A stretch of DNA of 64,000 nucleotides from Taurinivorans muris (GTDB lineage: Bacteria > Desulfobacterota > Desulfovibrionia > Desulfovibrionales > Desulfovibrionaceae), in assembly GCF_025232395.1 (NCBI RefSeq), contig NZ_CP065938.1:992001-1056000 (forward strand). Direction: 5' to 3'. Made by a program: the position numbers and the translations under genes. The notes under the pieces are model-generated. The model was not told the DNA's origin. It worked only from the letters and a program-made list of their open reading frames with translations, and did no database searches. This document shows, piece after piece, positions 2,953-30,199 of the stretch (position 1 is its first letter; every line of letters begins with the position of its first letter).

Positions 2953-3852
2953 TTATCCTATTAACTGCAAAGCCATTTGCGGTAATTGGTTTGCTTGTGA
3001 AAGCATGGAAACCGCAGAGTTGCTGAGAACTTGGTTTCTGACAAATTCTGTCATTTCCGTTGCGACGTCTACGTCGGAAATTCTGGATTCTGAAGCTTGG
3101 ACGTTTTCCGCCTGAATGGAAAGGTTGCTGATTGTCGCTTCCAGACGGTTTTGCATAGCACCAAGGTGGGCGCGGATATTATCCTTTGACACAATAGCTC
3201 TGGTAATGGCGTCAAGCGTCAGCTGCGCCATTTCCTGCGTTGAAATGGAAAAACCGCCGTTTGTCTTTGAAGCTTCGCCTGCGTTGTTTCCGAGACCTAA
3301 CGCTGATGCGGTGGTACAGCCGATTTTAATGTAATAGTAATCTTCGTCGGAATCGTTGCCTGTACCAAAGTGGATCTTAAGCTTGCCGACAGAATTTAAA
3401 CCGCTTCCGTCGTGGGTATCGTCACTTAATGTACCGTCAAGCAATTTGATGTTATTGAAGTCTGTCGCCATGGAAATACGAGTGATTTCCGAAGCCATTG
3501 CCTGATATTCAGAGTCAATCATAGCACGTTGGACAGAGTCGTACGTACCGGTGGAAGCTTGTTCCGCAAGCTCTTTCATGCGGATGAGCTTTTCGTCGAT
3601 GGTTTGCAAAGCACCATCAGCCGTTTGAATCAAGGAAATTGCGTCGTTGGCGTTACGCACACCTTGATGTAATGTTGAAATATCTGAACGCATAAGTTCG
3701 CGAATTGCAAGACCTGCTGCGTCGTCTGCCGCTGTACCGATACGTAAACCAGATGACAATCTCCGAGTTGAAGTTGAGAGTCTGTTATAGTGAGAATTCA
3801 AGTTTCTCGCTGTGTTCATTGCCATCATGTTATGATTTACAACTAATGACAT
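2953..3852 (-). CDS. fliC: Flagellin
   Basis: A 299-residue secreted filament subunit exported through the flagellar type III apparatus. The N-terminal D0/D1 region (residues 1-150) has the hallmark NTARNLNSHYNRL, RLSSGLRI, DDAAGLAIRE and QTADGALQTI segments. The C-terminal D1/D0 region has LGAMQNRLEATISNL, ISDVDVATEMTEF and a terminal QANQLPQMALQLI. The variable centre is short, giving a small flagellin like those of Desulfovibrio. A strong ribosome-binding site (AGGAGG) precedes the ATG, and a sigma-54 promoter lies 39 bases upstream. No other flagellar genes are in the window, so it is an isolated flagellin gene. Confidence 0.97.
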   Translation of the reverse strand: MSLVVNHNMMAMNTARNLNSHYNRLSTSTRRLSSGLRIGTAADDAAGLAIRELMRSDISTLHQGVRNANDAISLIQTADGALQTIDEKLIRMKELAEQASTGTYDSVQRAMIDSEYQAMASEITRISMATDFNNIKLLDGTLSDDTHDGSGLNSVGKLKIHFGTGNDSDEDYYYIKIGCTTASALGLGNNAGEASKTNGGFSISTQEMAQLTLDAITRAIVSKDNIRAHLGAMQNRLEATISNLSIQAENVQASESRISDVDVATEMTEFVRNQVLSNSAVSMLSQANQLPQMALQLIG

Positions 3853-24808: not shown

Positions 24809-24978
24809 AACAACTCCTGTACGATGCAAGGCAAGCACCATAATTAATTGTACCCGAACACAAAATTATTGCAATGAAATTTTAGCAAGAATTTTATCAG
24901 AAAAAAATAACATGGTTAAAACCATGCTTAATCATTGGAAAATTAAATTCCATATCCGGAATAATCAAAATTCCGACA

Positions 24979-25007
24979 TTGACAAATCCGTATTTGCAAC
25001 CTATTTT
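24979..25007 (+). promoter_or_regulatory. Sigma-70 promoter of the selenoprotein gene
   Basis: A perfect -35 TTGACA (24979-24984) is followed after 17 bases by TATTTT (25002-25007). The start would be near 25014, giving a leader of about 37 bases. An AGAGGA site precedes the ATG at 25051, and a small inverted repeat (ACGCA-TAG-TGCGT) lies in the leader. Confidence 0.65.
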
Positions 25008-25050: not shown

Positions 25051-25377
25051 ATGATTAAATTATCAGAAAATGCCAAAAAAGAACTTGATGCTTTTTTCGC
25101 AACAAAAGAAAAAAGCACCATTCGTGTTTTTTTAGCTCCCGGCGGCTGACGCGGTCCTAAATTATCTTTGGCTCTGGATGAGTCCAAATCAGATGATACA
25201 ACAGTGGAAGCAGAAGGATATACATTCTGCATTGAAACAAGCTTACTTTCACAAATTGGTGGTGCGACCATCGACATTACCTATTTAGGCTTTACTGTCG
25301 AACCTGAAATTCCGCTCAACGCGTCCGGTTCTTCCGGCTGCTCCAGCTGCAGCAGCGGCGGTTCCTGCTCCATCTAA
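25051..25377 (+). CDS. HesB/IscA-like selenoprotein (UGA at codon 33 read as selenocysteine)
   Basis: The frame starts at ATG 25051 after AGAGGA and runs 108 codons, interrupted by one TGA at 25147-25149 and ending with TAA at 25377. The residues around the TGA are LAPGG-U-RGPKLSLALDE, matching the first metal-binding motif of the IscA/HesB scaffold family, where this position is Cys or, in known HesB-like selenoproteins, Sec. A YTFCIE segment follows mid-protein, and the C-terminus is Cys/Ser/Gly-rich (GCSSCSSGGSC), standing in for CGC. A hairpin fitting bacterial SECIS rules lies 17 bases after the TGA. A simple gene finder would truncate it at 32 codons or start it at 25168. It probably binds or carries Fe-S clusters, selenium or sulfur; the exact role is unknown. 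Confidence 0.85.
25167..25188 (+). promoter_or_regulatory. Candidate bacterial SECIS element
   Basis: TTTGG (25167-25171) and CTC (25172-25174) pair with GAG (25180-25182) and, after a bulged T at 25183, CCAAA (25184-25188). The apical loop is TGGAT with G at its second position. The base of the stem is 17 nt after the UGA. Stem length, the bulged U, loop size and distance fit the published pattern for bacterial SECIS elements; the pairing was derived by hand. Confidence 0.65.
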
Positions 25378-25388
25378 TTTATTTCAAT

Positions 25389-25416
25389 GTATTCCCACAG
25401 CTTTTTGTGGGAATAC
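25389..25416 (+). terminator. Intercistronic hairpin between the two HesB-like genes
   Basis: A perfect 11-bp stem (GTATTCCCACA, 25389-25399, with 25406-25416) has a GCTTTT loop and lies 11 bases after the selenoprotein stop. Only CTTT follows, so termination would be partial. It also lies directly upstream of the paralogue, which has no visible ribosome-binding site, so it may set the ratio of the two proteins. Confidence 0.5.
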
Positions 25417-25431
25417 CTTTATGACGCTATG

Positions 25432-25755
25432 ATTGAAATCAGTTTAAACGCCCGAAAAGAACTGGAAACTTTCTTTTTATCCCAAGAAAAACAACCTATC
25501 CGTCTTTATTTAGCCCCGGGAGAGCAAAGCTCCAGACTGGAATTTATTTTGGATTCTCCGACGGAAGGGGACGAAGTTATCGCCGTGCAGGATTTTGTTT
25601 TCTGCATTAATGCTGAATTATTGAAAAAATGCGGCGGTATTCATATTGATGTCACTGATGATACGTTTATCGCAGCCCCCCGCATTCCTTTTCCGAAACG
25701 AAGCGCTTGTTCCGGAACAAGCTGCGGTACGTGCGGTTCTTCCTGCAAAAAATAG
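25432..25755 (+). CDS. HesB/IscA-like paralogue lacking the Sec/Cys position
   Basis: A 107-residue protein aligned along its whole length with the upstream selenoprotein: LSAR/NARKELE-like start, RLYLAPGE, RLEFILDSP, VFCINAELLKKCGGIHIDV and a C-terminal CSGTSCGTCGSSC tail. The motif that holds Sec in the neighbour reads APGEQSS here, one residue shorter and without Cys or Sec. The Cys-rich tail and the mid-protein cysteines are kept. The start at 25432 gives the best alignment; a longer frame from 25387 would cross the intercistronic hairpin. No Shine-Dalgarno sequence is evident. A regulatory or partner role for the selenoprotein is possible. Confidence 0.82.
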   Translation: MEISLNARKELETFFLSQEKQPIRLYLAPGEQSSRLEFILDSPTEGDEVIAVQDFVFCINAELLKKCGGIHIDVTDDTFIAAPRIPFPKRSACSGTSCGTCGSSCKK

Positions 25756-25774: not shown

Positions 25775-26239
25775 ATGAAATGCCCTTTTTGTAATTCAAT
25801 TCTTGAAAACGGATACTGCAAATCCTGCGAACGACAAATTCATGAACTTTATCGTCATCCCAAAAAAGCGGAACACGAAGAAAAACCTGAAAATGAAGAA
25901 GTGATTGAACCTGAAATCGTTGACGAGGAAGAGACCAATTCCCAGCGCGCTTATCGTAATTTCCGGCAATCTCCTCTTTTTACCCAATATGCATTCACAA
26001 ATGTCAATATGCACGATTCCTGCCTTACCGGCATTATCAGCTTCGGACTTATCTTTTTCGTTTTTCTGCAAATGGGTTTTTTAGCCGCCTTAGGCTTCGC
26101 ATTTTTCACGTTTATCGGAAAAATCATTTCCTTGATCATTTCCGTAAAAAGCCTTTTAAAAGGCAAAATCATATCCCCTATCATGCTCGATGTCGCCATT
26201 TGGATTATTTCCTATTGCCTTGTGACATGGCTTGCATGA
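25775..26239 (+). CDS. Zinc-ribbon membrane protein of unknown function
   Basis: A 154-residue protein beginning with a rubredoxin-like/zinc-ribbon knuckle pair (CPFC...CKSC, residues 3-18). A Glu-rich acidic linker (residues ~30-55) follows, then a short helical region. Two or three hydrophobic segments (residues ~87-150) end the protein, so the ribbon probably faces the cytoplasm. It follows the HesB-like paralogue by 19 bases with AAAAGG upstream, suggesting a shared message. I do not recognise the family. Confidence 0.78.
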   Translation: MKCPFCNSILENGYCKSCERQIHELYRHPKKAEHEEKPENEEVIEPEIVDEEETNSQRAYRNFRQSPLFTQYAFTNVNMHDSCLTGIISFGLIFFVFLQMGFLAALGFAFFTFIGKIISLIISVKSLLKGKIISPIMLDVAIWIISYCLVTWLA

Positions 26240-26295
26240 TTTAAACATAATCAAAACTTACAGCTAATATCATAATTATATTGCCATATAAACAT

Positions 26296-26324
26296 AAAAC
26301 AGCCCGGTCCATTCGGGCTGTTTT
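26296..26324 (+). terminator. Intrinsic terminator
   Basis: AAAACAGCCCG (26296-26306) pairs with CGGGCTGTTTT (26314-26324) across a 7-base loop. It ends the selenoprotein cluster 57 bases after the zinc-ribbon gene. Confidence 0.85.
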
Positions 26325-26416
26325 ATTAATTTTAATTGCACTCGCCCTTTTTTTCCCTATTTTCAATCCGTTTCCTGTCCGGCAGTACCCTTTTATGCAT
26401 ACTTGCAGATTAAATC

Positions 26417-26499: not shown

Positions 26500-27312
26500 A
26501 TGAAAATTAAAAAAATATTGTTTCAGGCAGCCCTTATTCTGTTATGTTTGGCAGGAACAACTCCCGCCATGGCGTTTGATTTGAACAAAGCGATAAGCGG
26601 AGCGACAAAAGCCGTGAAAGCCGTCACCCTGACCGACGAACAAATGGCGGAATATGTAAAGGAATACGTTGACTGGATGGACAAGAACAACAAAGTTTGC
26701 GCAGCCAACGATCCATACACCGTCCGTTTGAAAAAATTGACCAAAGGCTTGGGCGATGCAGACGGTATCCCCTTGAACTTCAAAGTGTACCATGTGAAAG
26801 ATGTGAACGCTTTCGCCTGTGCCGACGGCAGTGTGCGCGTATTTTCCTCATTGATGGACATCATGACCGACGAGGAATTGCTGGGCGTGATAGGCCATGA
26901 AGTGGGACACGTGGCGCACAGGGATTCAAAAGAAGGCTTCCGTACGGCATTGCTGACATCAGCATTGAAGGACGGCATTTCATCCAAAGGGGGAAAAACG
27001 GCTGTTCTGACAGATTCACAGCTGGGTGATTTGGGGGAAGCATTGGTCAACGCTTCCTATTCGCAAAAACAAGAATGTGCGGCTGATGATTACGGTTACG
27101 AATTTCTGAAAAAAGCGGGCAAAAATCCATGGGCTATGGCATTGTCTTTCCAAAAGCTGAAAAAAATGCAGGAAGGAGCAGGGGGTGCCAAGAAAAGCAG
27201 TGCGTTGAACCAGTTGTTTTCAACCCACCCGGACCTTGACAAGCGTATCGAACGCATGGAAAAGCGCGCCACAAAAGAAGGCATAAAGAAACCTGCAAAC
27301 ACAAAAAAATAA
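26500..27312 (+). CDS. Periplasmic M48 family metalloprotease
   Basis: A 270-residue secreted protein. The signal peptide (residues 1-25) ends near PAMA. The zinc-binding HEVGH motif is in GVIGHEVGHVAHRDS at about residues 130-144, and a downstream glutamate ligand lies in KQECAADDYG. FSTHPDLDKRIERM is the typical M48C-type ending. It resembles LoiP/YggG-like proteases that act in envelope protein quality control. A strong AGGAGAGG site precedes the ATG, and a terminator follows. Confidence 0.92.
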   Translation: MKIKKILFQAALILLCLAGTTPAMAFDLNKAISGATKAVKAVTLTDEQMAEYVKEYVDWMDKNNKVCAANDPYTVRLKKLTKGLGDADGIPLNFKVYHVKDVNAFACADGSVRVFSSLMDIMTDEELLGVIGHEVGHVAHRDSKEGFRTALLTSALKDGISSKGGKTAVLTDSQLGDLGEALVNASYSQKQECAADDYGYEFLKKAGKNPWAMALSFQKLKKMQEGAGGAKKSSALNQLFSTHPDLDKRIERMEKRATKEGIKKPANTKK

Positions 27313-27576: not shown

Positions 27577-29703
27577 CTAGTACTTGTTATAAGGGTTTCT
27601 GCGTATCAACATATACACAATAAAAACAACCGCACCAAAGCCTGCAAATGTTCCAAACGTAAACACGCCGGTCGTCATGAATGTTCCCAACTGGTAAATG
27701 ATGAGAGAAACAACATAGGCGAGCGCGCATTGGAACGTAATGGCAAACCATGTCCATGCAGGATTATTCATCTCCCGCTTGATCGCCCCGATAGCCGCAA
27801 AACACGGGGCGCAAAGCAAGTTAAAGACAAGGAACGCATAGGCTGAAACTTTGGTAAAATCATTGGCGAACAAAGTCCAAAATTCTTCACCGCTTTCAGC
27901 AACCTCCGCAAAACCGTAAAGCACCCCGAGCGTGCTGACAACGTTTTCTTTCGCAATAAGCCCGGTCACAGTTCCGACGGTCGCCTGCCATGTTCCGAAG
28001 CCCACCGGAGCAAATAACGGAGCAATGATATTGCCAAGAACGGCAAGCAAGCTTTCATCGCTATTTTCCACAGCGGCAAAACTGCCGTTTTCAAATCCAT
28101 ACCCCTGCAGAAACCACAGCACAATGGAAGAAAGCAGGATAACGGTTGTCGCCTTTTTGAAAAATGAAACACCCCGTTCCAAAGTCACGCGCAAAATATT
28201 TCCAAGCACAGGCAAATGATAGGGAGGCAGCTCCATAACAAAAGGACTTGGAGTTGACGCGAAAAGCTTTGTTTTTTTCAGCATGATGCCGGAAATGACA
28301 ATAGCGAAAATGCCCATAAAATACGCTGACGGAGCAACCCACCATTCACCGCCGAACAATGCCCCGGCAATAAGGGCGATAATAGGAAGCTTAGCGCTGC
28401 ATGGAATAAAGGTCGTCGTTAAAATCGTCATCCTTCTGTCACTTTCCGTTTCAACAGTACGGGAAGCCATAACTCCGGGAATACCGCAGCCGCTGCCGAT
28501 GAGCATAGGAATAAAAGACTTGCCGGACAAACCGAATTTACGGAAAATTTTATCCATGATAAAGGCAATGCGCGCCATATAACCGATATCTTCCAATATG
28601 GCGAGAAGAAAAGAAACCAATAAAATTTGCGGAATAAAACCGAGCACCGCCCCGACACCGCCGACAACGCCGTCAACGACAAGACCCGCAAGCCACCCGC
28701 TTGTTCCGGAACGTTCCAACCATTCATTTAAATTACCCTGCACAAATTCCCCGATAATGATATCGTTGGTATAATCCGTGGCAAGAGTTCCCAGCGTCGT
28801 CACAGAAATATAATAAACAAGGAAAATGACAGCCGCGAAAATCGGAATGGCGTAAAAACGGTTTGTCACGATACTGTCAATTTTTTCAGAAAGCGTTACT
28901 TCCCCTATGTTCTTTTTTATGACCAAGCGTTCAATTTGCTTGGTGATAAACAAATAACGCTGATTGATAATGATACTTTCGGAATCATCATCAAGATCTT
29001 TTTCACAGTTTGCAATATGTTCCTCAATATGGGCGAGCTGTTCTGCATCGAGCTTCAGTTTTTCCTGAATATCGGCGTCACGTTCAAAGAGTTTGATAGC
29101 GTACCAGCGGACTTTATCGGCAGGAACCAGTTTTTCAATGATTTCTTCAATATGGGCGATGGAATGTTCAACAGTCCCTTCAAAAATCGAAGGCAAATGC
29201 TTTTGCTCTTTCTGCATTTTCGCAAGCTCGACAGCTTTTGCGACAGCCTCTCTTGAGCCTTCTTTCAAAAGGGCGGACGTTTCAAACACGGGACAGCCGA
29301 AAACCCTTTCCAATTCCTGAATATTGATGGTGTCGCCCCGTTTGCGGATGACATCAATCATATTGAGAGCAATGACAACAGGAATGCCAAGTTCCAGAAG
29401 CTGCGTCGTCAGATACAGATTGCGTTCTATATTGCTGGCGTCCACTATATTTAAAATAACGTCGGGACATTCATCCAATAAAAAATTCCGGGAAACAACT
29501 TCTTCCGAAGTATAGGGTGATAAAGAATAAATTCCGGGCAAATCCTGAATTTGAATTTCCTTTTCATCTTTAAAATAGCCCATTTTCTTTTCAACGGTAA
29601 CTCCGGGCCAGTTCCCGACATACTGATTGCTGCCTGTCAAGTCGTTGAACATGGTAGTTTTGCCGCTATTGGGATTGCCTGTCAATGCAATAGTGATACT
29701 CAT
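27577..29703 (-). CDS. feoB: Ferrous iron transporter FeoB
   Basis: A 708-residue inner-membrane Fe(II) transporter. The N-terminal G domain has G1 GNPNSGKTT (residues 8-16), the G3 DLPGIYSL and G4 NMID. A helical guanine-dissociation-inhibitor-like region follows, and the C-terminal half has about 8-10 TM helices with the paired gate motifs (LIGSGCGIPGVMASR; LCAPCFAAIGAI). It is preceded 3 bases earlier by feoA and followed by the small Cys-rich gene. The operon is probably Fur-repressed. Confidence 0.97.
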   Translation of the reverse strand: MSITIALTGNPNSGKTTMFNDLTGSNQYVGNWPGVTVEKKMGYFKDEKEIQIQDLPGIYSLSPYTSEEVVSRNFLLDECPDVILNIVDASNIERNLYLTTQLLELGIPVVIALNMIDVIRKRGDTINIQELERVFGCPVFETSALLKEGSREAVAKAVELAKMQKEQKHLPSIFEGTVEHSIAHIEEIIEKLVPADKVRWYAIKLFERDADIQEKLKLDAEQLAHIEEHIANCEKDLDDDSESIIINQRYLFITKQIERLVIKKNIGEVTLSEKIDSIVTNRFYAIPIFAAVIFLVYYISVTTLGTLATDYTNDIIIGEFVQGNLNEWLERSGTSGWLAGLVVDGVVGGVGAVLGFIPQILLVSFLLAILEDIGYMARIAFIMDKIFRKFGLSGKSFIPMLIGSGCGIPGVMASRTVETESDRRMTILTTTFIPCSAKLPIIALIAGALFGGEWWVAPSAYFMGIFAIVISGIMLKKTKLFASTPSPFVMELPPYHLPVLGNILRVTLERGVSFFKKATTVILLSSIVLWFLQGYGFENGSFAAVENSDESLLAVLGNIIAPLFAPVGFGTWQATVGTVTGLIAKENVVSTLGVLYGFAEVAESGEEFWTLFANDFTKVSAYAFLVFNLLCAPCFAAIGAIKREMNNPAWTWFAITFQCALAYVVSLIIYQLGTFMTTGVFTFGTFAGFGAVVFIVYMLIRRNPYNKY

Positions 29704-29706
29704 CGT

Positions 29707-29937
29707 TTACCCCTCCGCCTCAACTTCGATCATTCCGGCATCTTCCTTACGCAAAGAAAGCATATATCCTCTTAATGTCACCTCGACAGGATCACCAAGA
29801 GGAGCGGTCCGCACCAATTTGATTTTACAGTCTTTAGTAATTCCCATATCCATAATCCGCCGTCTGACCGGTCCCTCTCCGTGAACCTTAAGAACCTTTA
29901 CGGAACCGCCGATAGGCACGTCTTTTAAAGTATACAT
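29707..29937 (-). CDS. feoA: FeoA family protein (second copy in operon)
   Basis: A 76-residue SH3-like protein: LKDVPIGGSVKVLKV, RRRIMDMGITKDCKIKLVRTAPLGDPVEVTLRGYMLSLRK-type core (split here for the reader), typical of FeoA. It would bind the cytosolic side of FeoB and modulate iron transport. It lies between the other feoA and feoB, with short gaps of 7 and 3 bases, and ends EVEAEG. Confidence 0.94.
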   Translation of the reverse strand: MYTLKDVPIGGSVKVLKVHGEGPVRRRIMDMGITKDCKIKLVRTAPLGDPVEVTLRGYMLSLRKEDAGMIEVEAEG

Positions 29938-29944
29938 AATTTTC

Positions 29945-30160
29945 CTAACTCACATAAACGTTTTGAGCAAAATCCTTATCGATAGCATAAGAGCTGTCTT
30001 TTGTCCTGACAATCAAATTTCCGCGTTCCGCCAAAGCAATTGTTATTTGCGCACCTTCGCAAAAACCCAATTCCTTAAAACGGGTTTTGATTTCATGTCC
30101 GGCTTTGATTTTGCGGATAATCAGTTTTTCACCTTTACGGGCTAAAGCTAACGGAAACAT
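29945..30160 (-). CDS. feoA: FeoA family protein (first copy in operon)
   Basis: A 71-residue FeoA-type SH3-like domain. The core reads KTRFKELGFCEGAQITIALAERG and SSYAIDKDFAQNVYV. I use the ATG at 30160, which has GAGGA 8-12 bases upstream; a longer frame from TTG at 30196 lacks a site. Two tandem FeoA genes before FeoB are common in Desulfovibrio-like genomes. A -35/-10 promoter and a Fur-like box lie upstream. Confidence 0.92.
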   Translation of the reverse strand: MFPLALARKGEKLIIRKIKAGHEIKTRFKELGFCEGAQITIALAERGNLIVRTKDSSYAIDKDFAQNVYVS

Positions 30161-30199
30161 AGCCTTTTCCTCAACAGAAACAATTTGTTTTTTCAATAT

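Follow-up and report, generated by a model that had tools for sequence, protein, structure and literature searches.

Although HesB-like selenoproteins have been on record for some twenty years, no function is agreed for them. Zhang et al. (2006, PMC1794560) included them among the selenoproteins of D. vulgaris and D. desulfuricans, and they have become a standard review entry, with the motif UxGP (PMC13188914). In Methanococcus, a HesB-like protein was seen by 75Se labelling and its function was described as not clear; a mutant of this protein still fixed nitrogen (PMC11097638). An Fe-S role is not established even among the characterised members of the family.

We analysed a stretch of 64,000 nucleotides from Taurinivorans muris, a sulfur bacterium of the mouse gut (contig NZ_CP065938.1, positions 992,001 to 1,056,000; here called the window), whose genome consists of 2.17 Mb in one contig. 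The window contains a HesB-like selenoprotein gene within an apparent three-gene unit. The selenoprotein family itself is already known and is not new; the less familiar parts are the Cys-less partner, the zinc-ribbon gene and the repeated Sec/Cys pairing. The features of the locus are listed below.

24979..25007, + strand: putative sigma-70-like promoter, TTGACA-17-TATTTT, with 10/12 consensus matches.
25051..25377, + strand: HesB/IscA-like selenoprotein gene, 108 codons, Sec at codon 33, identified from NF038090, PF01521, homologues and the predicted IscA fold.
25147..25149, + strand: in-frame TGA, the selenocysteine codon, at the first metal-binding Cys position of A-type carriers according to the homologue alignment.
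25167..25188, + strand: bacterial SECIS hairpin with loop UGGAU and a bulged U at 25183, recognised by its fold, pairing, compensatory changes and synonymous constraint.
25390..25415, + strand: perfect hairpin of 10 bp in the gap that separates the selenoprotein gene from the paralogue, a candidate for attenuation, processing or translation control.
25429..25755, + strand: Cys/Sec-less paralogue, APGEQSS in place of APGGURGP, 108 codons, identified from a sub-cut-off NF038090 match, the predicted IscA fold, its clade and dN/dS.
25775..26239, + strand: small zinc-ribbon membrane protein, CPxC...CxxC followed by hydrophobic segments.
26294..26326, + strand: intrinsic-terminator-like hairpin with a 14-bp stem and a T-rich tail, at the end of the three-gene unit.

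Translation of 25051-25377 gave 108 residues and a stop codon, interrupted solely by TGA at codon 33 within the motif APGG-U-RGP, as an earlier note made from the DNA alone had described, and a ribosome-binding-like GAGG lies directly 5' of the gene. The note had also assigned the protein to the known HesB-like selenoproteins, which was borne out by two family models. With C in place of U, the protein scored 96.8 bits against NF038090 (IscA_HesB_Se; cut-off 85), and the gene scored 89.6 bits when this model was run on the raw genome. The PF01521 domain reached 31.0 bits, above the gathering cut-off of 26.3. Like the Desulfovibrio proteins covered by NF038090, the protein comes from the same order, has Sec at the same position and has a SECIS just downstream, but the residue after its Sec is R, not A, S or G, its SECIS has a bulged U on the 3' side, and its non-TGA neighbour is Cys-less. 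It shares homology (37.8 bits) and the UxGP motif with TIGR01911 (HesB_rel_seleno), a sister subfamily that includes the HesB-like selenoprotein cited in reviews, yet lies below the cut-off of that model (66.35). IscA, SufA and ErpA (PF01521) have the same fold, the same Cys/Sec position after PGG and a Cys-rich C-terminus. The protein studied here differs from them in having Sec for Cys and a tail of the form CSSC...SC instead of GCG, and it falls far below their equivalog cut-offs. A structure model built from 13 sequences had IscA (1x0g, 1r94, 1s98) and SufA (2d2a) as its top Foldseek matches, with a flexible, Cys-rich tail (pLDDT <50). In agreement with the proposal that the TGA occupies the first metal-binding position of IscA-type proteins, Sec33 aligned with the Cys of PGGC in the A-type protein AQ_1857 (PDB 1nwb).

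Homologues were gathered by a search of relatives; a scan of the genome contigs with the single protein gave only three loci. Among the 58 aligned copies, TGA codon 33 was matched by TGA in 37 and by a Cys codon in 21, the two residues that the earlier note had proposed to look for at this position. TGA-bearing homologues were found in at least 51 of 59 genomes (counted at ≥78 bits), spread across the order, and an independent genome of the species, assembled from a metagenome (locus L047), also has TGA at this codon. The same-species match was the metagenome-assembled genome UBA8003 (99% identity), which PMC10507020 assigns to T. muris. The Sec decoding set of the genome is complete, comprising selA, selB, tRNA-Sec (selC) and selD, so the absence of selenocysteine genes that was named in advance as grounds for rejection did not apply. 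Among the 51 genomes with a TGA copy, selA was detected in 45; the other six are drafts of 67-94% completeness, and incompleteness presumably explains the missing gene. The only clear copies in genomes G010 and G012 were without TGA, and selA was not detected in either. The selD gene of T. muris (locus L051, G000:C1:1708917-1709840) also contains an in-frame TGA and probably encodes a selenoprotein itself.

The hairpin at 25167-25188, proposed in the note as a SECIS element starting 17 nt after the TGA, was found as described. It reads TTTGGCTC-TGGAT-GAG(T)CCAAA, with a five-nucleotide loop (25175-25179) that begins 25 nt downstream of the TGA and has G at position 2. It thus corresponds to the bacterial SECIS, a coding-region hairpin just after UGA with G within the first two loop positions, and this was conserved in 37/37 copies. 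The bulged U at 25183 stems from a Ser codon TCC that replaces Pro and is common to the genus. Folding of the single sequence was unremarkable (z = -1.9 for 29 nt and -1.2 for 54 nt; overall range -1.9 to -0.1), so thermodynamic folding alone fails to single out the SECIS, whereas comparison between homologues does. A stem of at least 6 bp was present in all 37 TGA-bearing homologues, versus only one of the 21 Cys homologues. The hairpin codons GCT-CTG-GAY-GAG were near-invariant in the TGA-bearing copies, the sole exceptions being two compensated pairs. For the residues A-L-D-E at positions +8 to +11, the 37 Sec copies used GCT (35) or GCC (2), CTG (37), GAY, and GAG for all 35 Glu; the 21 Cys copies used four Ala codons, five Leu codons and both Glu codons for the same residues. 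None of 5000 label permutations was as extreme as this difference. The test makes no correction for relatedness, but many Cys copies share a genome with a Sec copy, and the Sec copies do not form one clade. Codons flanking the hairpin varied in both sets alike. The two GCC-bearing Sec copies carry GGG for GAG, a compensated pair; pair 26-34 was kept through a two-sided change from T-A to C-G, and pair 23-37 through two-sided changes from G-C to T-A or C-G in several lineages. As far as sequence can tell, this synonymous constraint is the strongest evidence that the UGA is decoded as Sec and that the SECIS is under selection. The locus thereby offers clean evolutionary evidence of a selected UGA and hairpin, with the Cys copies, mostly from the same genomes, serving as an internal control. 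A search of Rfam at the locus gave no match worth keeping; the weak matches were mostly at the terminator, and all were below gathering scores.

Had the TGA been a true stop arising from a nonsense mutation or a sequencing error, the gene would be broken, and the open reading frames superficially look that way: the TGA closes a 56-aa frame, and a separate frame with a TTG start runs from 25168. The codon nevertheless recurs in the 51 or more genomes and in the independent genome of the same species, comparison with three sister species shows purifying selection on the frame past it (dN/dS ~0.10-0.28), and the hairpin codons are fixed. Conservation extends to both sides of the UGA, contrary to a downstream protein starting at 25168 with nothing conserved before it. 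Conservation across genera refutes the broken gene, to which we assign virtually no credence. Judged by these comparisons of sequence, the gene at 25051-25377 encodes a HesB/IscA-family selenoprotein, and the selenocysteine reading is correct. The note had warned that automated annotation would truncate or lose such a protein. Open reading frame calls are indeed split at the TGA, but an NCBIfam model exists for the family, and an annotation pipeline can therefore avoid losing the protein. The function that we consider very probable for this selenoprotein is that of a selenocysteine A-type Fe-S or iron carrier working with the NifU system and adjoining a non-chelating paralogue. By comparative sequence analysis, UGA 25147 is read as selenocysteine via SelB, tRNA-Sec and the hairpin at 25167-25188. 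In the alignment, Sec33 stands where A-type carriers have the first of their three metal-binding cysteines, and Cys97, Cys100 and Cys106 of the tail may provide the other ligands. The protein would then most likely carry an Fe-S cluster or iron from the NifU scaffold to client proteins in an anaerobe without SufBD. The genome encodes a full-length NifU (382 bits, above its cut-off) and gave no match to SUFBD_core; supply by a NifU-centred pathway is therefore likely. A whole-genome search with PF01521 found no further members over threshold. The selenoprotein gene itself was also missed in that search, which therefore excludes only typical members, and divergent A-type carriers may exist elsewhere in the genome. 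A redox function is assumed for most prokaryotic selenoproteins (PMC13188914), and the Cys-rich flexible tail would fit several thiol chemistries. A thiol/selenol redox protein, or a binder of soft metals or selenium, is on these grounds an unlikely but not negligible alternative to the Fe-S or iron carrier; the IscA fold and the ligand position of Sec speak against it, and a UxxC/CxxU motif is absent.

The paralogue claimed beside the selenoprotein gene is present at 25429-25755. Its start was placed at 25429 by alignment of homologues; the first ATG, at 25387, is not the start. With 53.7 bits against NF038090 (cut-off 85) it is, by that test, a divergent relative rather than a member. At the first ligand position, the paralogues of the genus read APGEQSS, APGNISS and APAENTS, so that both Sec/Cys and the GP motif are gone, while the tail cysteines C99, C102 and C106 are conserved. 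Its predicted structure has an IscA fold (mean pLDDT 83.7), with IscA proteins as top matches. The three complete Cys-less copies, one from T. muris and two from sister species, form one supported clade (100/98). The loss of the ligand and of the GP motif, together with a long tree branch, could point to a decaying, functionless duplicate. This is very improbable in view of a dN/dS of ~0.11-0.27 (with dS near saturation) and of an operon position kept in all four locus-holding genomes of the genus. Despite the ligand loss, the paralogue keeps an IscA-like fold by prediction and a Cys-rich tail, and it is under purifying selection. The main rival is a regulatory role like that of DsrR from Allochromatium vinosum. 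DsrR is an IscA-fold protein without cluster ligands that affects dsr expression, and its structure (2k4z) was among the fold matches of the paralogue. In contrast to DsrR, the paralogue retains three conserved tail cysteines, adjoins a selenoprotein gene and lies outside a dsr operon, and we regard a DsrR-like regulator that is no partner of the selenoprotein as possible, though rather unlikely. Tentatively, the paralogue most likely serves as a non-chelating partner or binds clients, or else it may supply one subunit of a mixed dimer or have a regulatory function. The genus thus presents a natural experiment, in which a partner copy has lost the Sec/Cys ligand and is still under selection. 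T. muris is cultivated, which makes the role testable. In the open-licence literature that was searched, no discussion of the Cys-less paralogue or of the zinc-ribbon gene was found.

The third gene, noted earlier as a zinc-ribbon membrane protein near the selenoprotein gene, was likewise recovered. Its protein matched no family in Pfam. The gene occurs in all four locus-holding genomes of the genus (T. muris included), 3' of the paralogue in each, and in G002 it is on a separate contig that begins inside the paralogue. The four Cys of the protein are invariant. Outside the genus, one weak, distant and unlinked match was obtained. One conceivable but unlikely arrangement is that the Sec protein pairs with the Cys-less paralogue as a dedicated mixed A-type carrier that has only one selenolate ligand set and may be held at the membrane by the zinc-ribbon protein. 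If so, the genus would have its own version of a Sec/Cys pair system that has arisen again and again in the order. The core of the promoter-like site, CATTGACAAA, is conserved 5' of the gene in all sister species compared. For the hairpin at 25390-25415, the arms are kept and the loops differ in two sister species (loci L053 and L055). The idea that this hairpin is a dispersed repeat was rejected, as it is the sole copy in the genome.

The earlier note could not place an arrangement of a HesB-like selenoprotein with a paralogue and a zinc-ribbon membrane protein. This holds for the Cys-less partner and the zinc-ribbon gene, which are peculiar to the genus, but not for the pairing of TGA and non-TGA copies, which is frequent in the order, the two lying within ~1 kb of each other in 17 of 59 genomes. 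Most genomes of the family have Cys in their second copy, and species G004 possesses both an upstream Cys copy and a Cys-less copy. A single clade of all TGA copies was rejected (AU p ~3e-44). Within a genome, the Sec copy and the Cys copy are often mutual closest relatives (loci L009, L010, L013/L077, L016 and L029). Such pairs may have arisen by recurrent duplication accompanied by Sec/Cys switching, or by gene conversion from one copy to the other. Genome G005, of the same family, holds an expanded set of nine HesB-like matches, several of them very divergent, with and without TGA (L057, L091, L092 and others). In G029 (locus L078, around position 3539, reverse strand), a third tandem HesB-like copy has His-Ala replacing Gly-Cys/Sec (FLSFMHASGPRL), apparently a second, independent ligand loss.

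Several further elements were observed around the operon. Between the pyrR gene and the operon lies an inverted repeat, AACATGGTTAAAACCATGCT, at 24909-24928, which is not conserved in sister species. Downstream, positions 26500-27312 encode an M48-family metalloprotease that is related to LoiP and scores below the LoiP cut-off. About 2 kb from the operon, the region 27577-30196 holds feoB on the minus strand with two small feoA-looking open reading frames upstream, and from its sequence this region looks like an iron-uptake neighbourhood.
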